DNA of 45,022 nucleotides from Chloroflexota bacterium. GTDB taxonomy: Bacteria > Chloroflexota > Dehalococcoidia > SHYB01. A program made the position numbers and the translations under genes. The stretch lies in the NCBI GenBank assembly GCA_022572465.1, contig JACZVV010000010.1, positions 1 through 45,022 of the forward strand. The letters are read 5' to 3'. Under the pieces are notes generated by a model. The model was not told the origin of the DNA, ran no database searches, and was given only the letters and a program-made list of their open reading frames with translations. Positions 30,482 through 33,409 of this stretch are shown here, in pieces; position 1 is the stretch's first letter, and every line of letters starts with the position of its first letter.

Positions 30482-31279
30482 CTAGGTCTCGACGCGCTCG
30501 ATACGGTACTCAAGGGTACCGCCCGGCGCATGGACCTTAACCGTGTCGCCGGAGCCCTTTTTCAGGAACGCCTTGCCCGTCGGCGACTCGGTAGAGATCT
30601 TCCCCTCACGGAGATTGACCTCCGACGGGCTGACCAGGTGATATGTCAGCTCCTCGTTGACCTTGAGGTCGGTCACGACCACGCGGCTGCCCAGACGCGC
30701 CCTGACTCGCACCGACTTGGCGCTGCCGTCCAACACCTCGGCGTAGCGCAACGTCTGCTCGATCTCCCTGATGCGGGCCTCGAGGTGGCCTTGCTTCTCG
30801 CGAGCCGCGTCGAGCGGGGCGTTCTCTCGGAAATCCTTGTCCGCTGCGGCCACCCGCATCGCCTCCGCAACCTCCACTCGCTGGCCGATCAGCTTCTGCA
30901 GCTCCACCTGGGCCTTCTTAAAACTCTCAGGGGTCAACGTCTCGGTCTGGACGTCGGCGGTCGCCCGTTTGGCGCCGGGCCGGCCGGCTCTTTTCTTGGC
31001 CTTGACGTGGGCGCCAAGGTTCGAACCCGTCAGGCCTTCTCCGTGGGCGTAACGGAGGAAGCCCCGCACGGGGGCAAGCTCCGCCGCCGAGTCGGCGCCC
31101 GAGGCCTCGCAGTACGCTTCGATGATCCTGGGGGTCAGCGTATCGACCGATCGAGTGCGCCCGGTCCAGCGAATAAACTTTTGGAGCGCGGGCTGCAGCA
31201 CGGAGGACTTCGCGTCCGATTGGGTCGTCAGGAACCGGGTTATGGCTTCGGTGAGGGTGGGAGCGTTCGAAGCCGTCAT
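30482..31279 (-). CDS. GreA/GreB-type transcript cleavage factor with an N-terminal integrase-like SAM domain
   Basis: Residues about 116-265 form a complete Gre factor: coiled coil with the acidic tip DKDFRENAPLDAAREKQG (Asp149/Glu152 aligning with GreA Asp41/Glu44 that activate RNA cleavage in RNA polymerase) and the C-terminal FKBP-like domain ending with SPTGKAFLKKGSGDTVKV. Residues about 8-92 look like the core-binding SAM-like domain of tyrosine recombinases (FIRWTGRTRSVDTLTPRIIE, FLRYAHGEGLTGSNLG), followed by a basic linker. No catalytic recombinase domain is present. ATG 31279 has AAGGAGG nine bases upstream. Probably a Gre factor with an extra nucleic-acid-contacting domain. Confidence 0.9.
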   Translation of the reverse strand: MTASNAPTLTEAITRFLTTQSDAKSSVLQPALQKFIRWTGRTRSVDTLTPRIIEAYCEASGADSAAELAPVRGFLRYAHGEGLTGSNLGAHVKAKKRAGRPGAKRATADVQTETLTPESFKKAQVELQKLIGQRVEVAEAMRVAAADKDFRENAPLDAAREKQGHLEARIREIEQTLRYAEVLDGSAKSVRVRARLGSRVVVTDLKVNEELTYHLVSPSEVNLREGKISTESPTGKAFLKKGSGDTVKVHAPGGTLEYRIERVET

Positions 31280-31428
31280 ACGCGGGGCCTCCTTGACATA
31301 TCGCAGAAAGCAGAGTAAACGTTGGGGCCGTAACGAGGCGGGAACGCCTCGCGATGGTTCAGGTTCATCATAGCATAGGTCCTGAGCGGGGGGTCCTCCC
31401 AATCCGGCGTCGGCGCGCCCGTCGTTTT

Positions 31429-31456: not shown

Positions 31457-31519
31457 TTGATGCCTCGCGCATCAAGCAGACGCCGGCTAGGTGAGGGGGT
31501 CCGGGCTTGCGGCCCGGAG
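31457..31519 (+). promoter_or_regulatory. Two hairpins in the ftsH leader, one masking the ribosome binding site
   Basis: TTGATGC/GCATCAA (31457-31463 and 31469-31475, five-base loop) and CCGGGC/GCCCGG (31501-31506 and 31512-31517, loop TTGCG). The second stem ends in the GG of the GGAG ribosome binding site (31516-31519), so it could restrict translation until melted. Confidence 0.45.
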
Positions 31520-31525
31520 TCGTGG

Positions 31526-33409
31526 ATGAATCAACGATTGGTCCGGAACAGCATCGTTTACGTCCTCATCCTTGTGGCGGTGATCGCCATTTTTTGGGCC
31601 GTTTTCAGCGGCGGATCCACCGATGAGGAGGTAACGATCACCCAGATCGTGACCACGATTCGGGACGAGAGAGGATCGGTCAAGCAGGTCATCGTCGATG
31701 GCGACAAGGTCACCCTGGAGTTCACCGATCCTGACCGTTCCAAGATCAAGGCCCGCAAGGAGAAGAACGTCGGGATCCAGGAGTACCTGACGGACGCCGG
31801 CGTGCCGACGGCCGGCGCTCAGGCGGTCCCGATCAACATCAAGCAGTCCAGCTCCTTCGGCAACCTCTTCGGTCTTTTCCTGAATTTCCTCCCCTTGATC
31901 TTCTTTGGCGCGATCATCCTGTTCATGATGCGCCAGGCCCAGGGGAGCAACAGCCAGGCCATGAGCTTCGGTAAAAGCCGGGCCAGGAAGTTCGTGGAGA
32001 ACCGGCCCACGGTGACCTTCTCCGACGTGGCCGGAATAGAGGAGGCGAAACAGGAGCTCCAGGAGGTGGTGGAGTTCCTGACGTACCCCGAGCGGTTCGC
32101 CAGCCTGGGCGCCCGCATTCCCAAGGGCGTGCTGCTCGTGGGCCCGCCGGGCACCGGCAAGACGCTGCTGGCCAGGGCCGTCGCCGGAGAGGCCGGCGTG
32201 CCGTTCTTCAATATCAGCGGCAGCGAGTTCGTGGAGATGTTCGTCGGCGTCGGCGCGTCCCGGGTGCGGGACCTGTTCGAGCAGGCGCGCCGCAACGCGC
32301 CATGCATCATCTTCGTCGACGAGATCGACGCGGTGGGCCGCCACCGGGGCGCCGGGCTGGGCGGCGGCCACGACGAGCGGGAGCAGACGCTGAACCAGAT
32401 CCTGGTGGAGATGGACGGCTTCGACGCCACCACCAATATCATCATACTGGCCGCCACCAACCGGCCCGACATCTTGGACCCGGCGCTGCTGCGGCCGGGC
32501 CGGTTCGACCGCCGCGTGGTGCTGGACGCGCCCGACATCAAGGGCCGCAAGTCGATCCTGGACGTGCACATCAAGGGCAAGCCCCTGGATGAGGACGTCA
32601 ACCTCGAAACCGTCGCCAAAGAGACGGCGGGCTTCACCGGCGCCGATCTGGCCAACCTGATCAACGAAGCGGCGCTCCTGGCCGCCCGGCGCGGCAAGAA
32701 AACGATCACGATGGACGAGCTGGAGGAGTCGGTGGACCGGGTGATCGCCGGGCCCGAACGGAAGAGCCGCGTCGTCACCCAGCACGAGAAGGAAATCACC
32801 GCCTACCACGAGGCGGGCCACGCCCTCGTCGCGAGCAAGCTGGAGCACGCCGACCGAGTCCATAAGATCACCATCGTCCCCCGCGGCATGGCCGGCGGGT
32901 TCACGCGCTTCCTGCCCCAGGAAGAGCGGCGGTACGCCAGCGTCAACTTCCTGAAGGACGGCTTGGCCGTCGCCCTCGGCGGGCGCTCGGCTGAGGAGAT
33001 GATCTTCGACGATGTCACCAGCGGCGCATCCGACGACCTGAAGCGGGCCACCGCCATCGCCCGCAAGATGATCACCGAGTGGGGCATGAGCGAGAGCCTC
33101 GGACCCCGCACCTTCGGCCAGAAACAAGAGATGGTCTTCCTGGGCCGGGAGATCACCGAGCAGCGGGACTATGGCGACCGCATCGCCAATCAGATCGACG
33201 AGGAGATCCTTGCCCTGGTCGAAGAGGCCCACAACCGGGCCCGCGCGACCCTTACCGAGAACAAAGCGAAGCTCGTCCAGCTCGCTCGGCGCCTCATCGC
33301 GAAGGAAACCATCGACCGGAAAGAATTGGACGAGCTCCTTGAGTCCGAGGTGCCGCCCCTCGACGACGACACGCCCGAGCAGCAAGCCGTTGAGGCGTCG
33401 GTCCCCTAA
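31526..33409 (+). CDS. ftsH: ATP-dependent zinc metalloprotease FtsH
   Basis: Membrane AAA+ protease that degrades misfolded membrane proteins and selected regulators. The 627-residue protein has an N-terminal helix ([20 protein letters not shown]), a periplasmic domain (about 30-105), a second helix ([19 protein letters not shown]), then the AAA domain with Walker A GPPGTGKT at 206-213, Walker [12 protein letters not shown], and [13 protein letters not shown], and the M41 protease with zinc motif HEAGH at 428-432. ATG 31526 is preferred over 31457 because it has GGAG six bases upstream and matches the family. Divergent from the GreA-like gene. Confidence 0.98.

Follow-up and report, generated by a model that had tools for sequence, protein, structure and literature searches.

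To our knowledge, Gre factors have been taken to act through the secondary channel of RNA polymerase alone. Core-binding domains of tyrosine recombinases contribute to site recognition, and their helices 2 and 4 face DNA. In the GreA of Escherichia coli, D41 and E44 work on the catalytic Mg2+, and the suppression of arrested complexes is impaired in the D41A E44Y variant, as stated in excerpts of PMC7527559. For a Gre paralog acting as an inhibitor of cleavage there is a precedent in Gfh1 of Thermus, going by the title of a reference cited in the same source.

Here we describe a gene in which a domain resembling the recombinase core-binding domain is joined to an entire Gre factor. It lies in a stretch of 45,022 nucleotides from a Chloroflexota bacterium (contig JACZVV010000010.1 of assembly GCA_022572465.1), referred to below as the window. 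No description of this fusion was found in the open-licence literature, which is no proof of absence. What is new here is that the catalytic acids are kept in the fused Gre and usually lost in its unfused partner. The first-pass annotation of this DNA, which had proposed the fusion, overlooked both this loss of the acids and the finding that the fusion is the sole Gre found in Dehalococcoides-like genomes.

Results

The fusion gene occupies positions 30482..31279 on the minus strand, exactly the coordinates first proposed, and encodes 265 amino acids plus a stop (start codon ATG at 31279, final codon at 30485, stop codon at 30482-30484). An AAGGAGG ribosome-binding motif (31288..31294, minus strand) ends 8 nt ahead of this ATG. 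The claim that a good ribosome-binding site is found at the long start only was largely borne out: no such motif was found at codon 115, the in-frame TTG with which the Gre portion starts, but GGAGG-like runs were present upstream of the ATG at codon 141, which falls within the coiled coil. Downstream on the same strand is a gene of the sodium/calcium exchanger family (PF01699; 29144-30400), and ftsH (31457-33409) is divergent from the fusion gene. The ftsH gene adjoined the fusion in 7 of 81 loci, the window among them; no gene was found to be conserved next to the fusion, the most widespread neighbouring family occurring in 20 of the 81 loci.

The Gre portion is complete. Matches of the window protein to the Pfam families GreA_GreB_N (residues 115-182; 63.5 bits against a cut-off of 24.5) and GreA_GreB (residues 194-264; 71.2 bits against 26.9) both exceeded the cut-offs. 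Together with the structural model, they delimit a coiled-coil domain (PF03449; residues 115-182, positions 30734..30937, minus strand) and a C-terminal globular domain (PF01272; residues 190-265, positions 30485..30712, minus strand). The NCBIfam GreA models scored below their own cut-offs (PRK00226.1-4, 127.5 against 145; TIGR01462, 122.7 against 139). The closest solved structure by sequence was E. coli GreA (1grj), with whose Asp41 and Glu44 the tip residues Asp149 and Glu152 align (149 to 152; positions 30824..30835, minus strand). The annotation had numbered these residues correctly, and both were invariant in a 25-row alignment.

The N-terminal part had been described as resembling the core-binding domain of tyrosine recombinases. 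A Pfam scan of the window protein gave no match in this domain, and among 25 relatives the matches were weak, comprising PF13495 in 6 (best 0.015), PF02899 in 2 (0.0048) and PF22022 in 2 (0.0035). Profile comparison by hhalign of 67 arms with 25 Xer-type recombinases from the same class revealed a likeness well above chance. The arm profile matched the Xer profile with a probability of 96.8%, against at most 0.5% for 20 column shuffles, 0.2% for the reversed profile and 0.1% for the Gre part. When the sequences were scored singly against the Xer profile, 65 of the 67 arms had E <0.01, and the best reversed control had 0.03.

AlphaFold2 modelled the whole protein with a mean pLDDT of 87.7, low confidence at linker residues 99-111 and a pTM of 0.43; therefore, no fixed arrangement of the arm relative to Gre is predicted. 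Structure prediction had been put forward as a means of refuting the resemblance, and it yielded the recombinase core-binding fold. This SAM-like domain spans residues 7-96 (positions 30992..31261, minus strand), with helices at residues 9-19, 22-39, 50-60, 69-80 and 88-91. The arm modelled alone (pLDDT 79.8) matched the integrase N-terminal domain 3nrw (Z 13.0, rmsd 2.1, 91 aligned), XerD (Z 10.7, rmsd 2.3, 84 aligned) and lambda integrase (Z 10.4-10.6), and rows 1-22 of the fold comparison were all recombinases or phage-integrase fragments; for helical bundles, a Z of 13 lies only at the edge of what the fold tool warns about. The best Foldseek match was likewise 3nrw (probability 1.00, TM 0.70, E 0.012), the E-values of this tool being weak by themselves. 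Core-binding homology was accepted because the profile and fold lines were taken together. Chance likeness of a helical bundle was ruled out by the shuffled and reversed controls and by the recombinase-only composition of the first 22 rows. The recombinase catalytic domain is absent, residues 115-265 being Gre and the Pfam scan giving no integrase catalytic match. Between arm and Gre lies a flexible linker, basic as had been noted (residues 97-114, positions 30938..30991, minus strand; model pLDDT <50 at 99-111), and residues 92-114 carry a median net charge of +5.

Across 78 arm rows, Lys or Arg was frequent at positions 34 (83%), 37 (86%), 43 (91%), 72 (97%), 80 (88%), 93 (99%) and 96 (96%), and the conserved basic residues are concentrated in helices 2 and 4 and the linker (34, 37, 72, 80, 93 and 96). 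Comparison of arm and Xer positions through a common profile, in which 37 arm segments were above the inclusion threshold, identified three basic positions common to both groups (near 67, 72 and 96, ~96% basic in Xer). The window protein itself has non-basic residues at some positions where other arms are basic (67 and 80) and His at 79. Because of the conserved Lys/Arg in helices 2 and 4 and the linker and the three positions common to Xer, we infer that the arm moors the protein to nucleic acid, with DNA as its probable target. Alternatively, the arm could be a protein-protein module that docks on a clade-specific RNA polymerase surface or on a partner such as a repair helicase, the ribosome or the unfused Gre. 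The most conserved arm positions are hydrophobic or structural (F35, W38, G40, Y56, F74, L75 and L88), some recombinase basic residues are gone (profile column 55 is basic in 88% of Xer and 0% of arms), and a core-binding fold can serve protein contacts too. However, the several strongly conserved basic positions, including those common to recombinases, and the net charge of the linker argue for nucleic acid, and protein docking appears rather unlikely.

Of 294 genomes sampled from the class, which we infer to be Dehalococcoidia from the titles of named relatives and the reductive dehalogenases of closed genomes, 247 contained the arm, as did 167 of the 180 class genomes with >=90% completeness and <=5% contamination. 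In a phylum sample of 201 genomes, full-length fusion matches were present in 23 of the 24 genomes from the class and in 29 of the remaining 177. Of these 29 matches, 7 start further along the profile and diverge more strongly. The fusion, whose absence from all relatives would have told against it, was thus found throughout much of the class and in some other Chloroflexota. Most of the best 80 of 318 relatives from a wider contig search were titled Chloroflexi, Chloroflexota, Dehalococcoidia or Dehalococcoidales, and the Deltaproteobacteria (L066) and Actinomycetes (L077) titles among these 80 were taken for mislabelled bins. An artefact of a single assembly or a frameshift was ruled out by the occurrence of the arm throughout the class sample and of the fusion in closed genomes. 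Viral origin was also considered, and none of 17 pattern matches in viral contigs coded for a relative. Closed genomes of 1.4-1.9 Mb within the class are rich in reductive dehalogenases, the five that were searched having 19-30 matches each.

Arms were not listed for the class genomes G006, G066 and G096, whose Gre tips were TGTEENADY, GDITDSAQY and similar, or for G244 and G253, in which GPDQLDGQY was the only Gre tip seen. No Gre match of any kind was found in the class genomes G009, G046, G053, G071, G114, G177 and G290. In G006, where no arm was found, two unfused Gre genes adjoin one another (G006:C8:7071-8031; tips GDITDSAQY and GDITDDSQY). Within one family of the class, Gre without an arm was present in G080 (L264; fusion-type tip KDFRENAPL) and G197 (L284; tip GDFSENAPL), a probable secondary loss of the arm; the arm is therefore not strictly needed. 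Fusions in G054 (L263), G020, G103, G088 and G073 (L265-L268) carry an extra acidic extension before the arm, the open frames being 347-377 aa long; in G020, G103 and G073 the tip of the unfused Gre is rewritten to PGARDEGDG or PGARDEGEG.

In a tree of 145 Gre domains, all 74 fused rows fell to one side of one branch (93/92), with the bootstrap not fully settled, and the unfused Gre of fusion-bearing genomes mainly clustered with ordinary GreA of the phylum. Read without a root, the tree fits a single origin of the fusion, which is probably an ancient, class-wide Gre paralog. In three Dehalococcoides-like pairs, dN/dS was 0.007, 0.039 and 0.035 for the arm against 0.065, 0.072 and 0.100 for the Gre part. 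Values for the arm were obtained for 14 of 15 pairs, the other 11 ranging from 0.029 to 0.404; the closest pairs showed few changes. These values place the arm under purifying selection and therefore indicate that it is translated and kept for its sequence.

The GreA of D. mccartyi CBDB1 (cbdbA743) is acetylated at K17, to a greater extent in stationary phase, according to excerpts of PMC7918482. In three Dehalococcoides-like genomes, residue 17 is Lys when counted from an internal Met at the Gre start and Asn or Ser when counted from the long start. Placement of acetyl-K17 within the arm was rejected, K17 being incompatible with long-form numbering. Judged from these three genomes, the numbering suggests that the public D. 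mccartyi GreA lacks the arm through annotation. The same lysine would also be accounted for if the working product were a short Gre from an internal start, with the N-terminal part not always made, and in-frame start codons are indeed found close to the Gre start in 63 of 77 fusion loci. However, truncated annotation explains the K17 numbering equally well, and a ribosome-binding motif was present at the internal start near the Gre start in just 9 of the 77 loci, compared with 30 of 77 at the long start, where the window has its AAGGAGG. With the arm also showing lower dN/dS than the Gre part in the Dehalococcoides-like pairs, a short working product is very unlikely.

A second, stand-alone gre had been named as something to look for, and one is present in the window's own genome (G000:C33:3544-4008; L001, L163). 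Its tip reads ESTVNNAEY, with both catalytic acids replaced. When 162 genomes were compared, both acids were kept in all 79 fused copies, which were not picked by tip pattern, whereas the loci of the 80 listed relatives were. Among 132 unfused copies from 118 genomes, each either a class member or a carrier of the fusion, Glu44 was present in 14, Asp41 in 44 and both in 7, as counted by alignment column with distant extra paralogs included. Genomes for this count were taken from lists, not randomly, and duplicates from the same genome were merged on the basis of their final 60 residues. The phylum's fusion-less genomes (n=13) contributed 20 unfused copies, of which 20 had Glu44 and 20 had Asp or Glu at position 41. 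Both kinds of Gre were read in 48 genomes, 45 of which were without any two-acid unfused copy (the exceptions being G373, G394 and G464). The two-acid unfused copies were those of G080, G197, G234 (short frame), G121 (L288, possibly a contaminant), G373, G394 (doubtful alignment) and G464. The copy in the class genome G121 (L288:136-1998) is a 620-aa protein in which a C-terminal Gre with intact acids follows a long and unrelated N-terminal region.

The fusion was the single Gre match in seven closed genomes, three of them Dehalococcoides-like and four of the sister genus; in one of the seven, G123, another profile search gave a second, weak Gre match.

Discussion

Collectively, we judge it probable that the fusion is the working transcript-cleavage factor of these bacteria, held at the elongation complex by a nucleic-acid-binding arm. 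The Gre globular domain would dock at the rim of the secondary channel of RNA polymerase, and the coiled coil would bring Asp149 and Glu152 to the active site, where they would trigger cleavage of backtracked RNA. The core-binding domain, derived from a tyrosine recombinase minus the catalytic half, is attached by a flexible basic linker of ~20 residues, with its junction to Gre at the point where a recombinase would run on into its catalytic domain. By analogy with GreA, the arm would begin at the outer base of the coiled coil, and the ~20 flexible, mostly basic residues would give it reach to nearby nucleic acid. Outside the channel, the arm would most likely grip nucleic acid close to the polymerase, with the downstream duplex as the first candidate and extruded RNA as the second; this grip would lack strict sequence specificity and would keep the factor on the complex. 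We give very little probability to an arm that directs Gre to particular DNA sequences, with rescue aimed at certain sites, since, although recombinase core-binding domains help to recognise sites and there is usually one such arm per genome, no neighbour is conserved around the 81 loci and a general elongation factor would presumably gain little from specificity.

Alongside a moored cleavage factor, the unfused GreA, its acids usually lost, would probably occupy the same channel without stimulating cleavage and, by analogy with Gfh1, act as a non-cleaving competitor. More tentatively, the class and parts of the phylum may possess a two-protein Gre system in which the moored factor and a catalytically dead GreA compete for the channel, the balance between them setting how backtracked polymerase is handled, and in which Dehalococcoides has been left with the moored form alone.

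If mooring by the arm is correct, a nucleic-acid arm would be a new way of holding a cleavage factor on the elongation complex, and one that is retained in most of the genomes sampled from the class to which the dehalogenating Dehalococcoides belongs. The loss of the acids in the unfused partner leads to the prediction that the ordinary-looking greA of these genomes is not the cleavage factor. Annotation can also credit the wrong protein with the function or cut the arm off.

With GreA and GreB, as exemplified by E. coli GreA (1grj), the fusion has in common the coiled coil, the globular domain and the Asp/Glu pair at the tip. It differs from E. coli GreA in its additional N-terminal core-binding domain, and fusions have a further Asp two residues ahead of the catalytic Asp and, in most cases, an ENAP tip. 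With the core-binding domains of tyrosine recombinases (3nrw, lambda Int 1z1b and XerD 1a0p), the arm shares its fold, its profile and several conserved basic positions, and Gre stands in place of the recombinase catalytic domain. In contrast to Gfh1 of Thermus (2eul), the window fusion keeps the acids; the Gfh1-type loss of the cleavage acids is found instead among the unfused copies, only 7 of 132 having both. The long-chain Gre proteins of NCBIfam (PRK06330, 718 positions; PRK14720, 906 positions) and the 620-aa protein of L288 all carry Gre at the C-terminal end, as the fusion does, but their N-terminal part is other and far longer, and the window protein matches PRK06330 and PRK14720 in the Gre end only. 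In the GreA/B-C conflict proteins with TPR and PIN domains, as described in excerpts of PMC8195603, a Gre domain is also coupled to other modules; there, however, the C-terminal domain alone is joined to a nuclease, whereas the window protein contains the entire cleavage factor.
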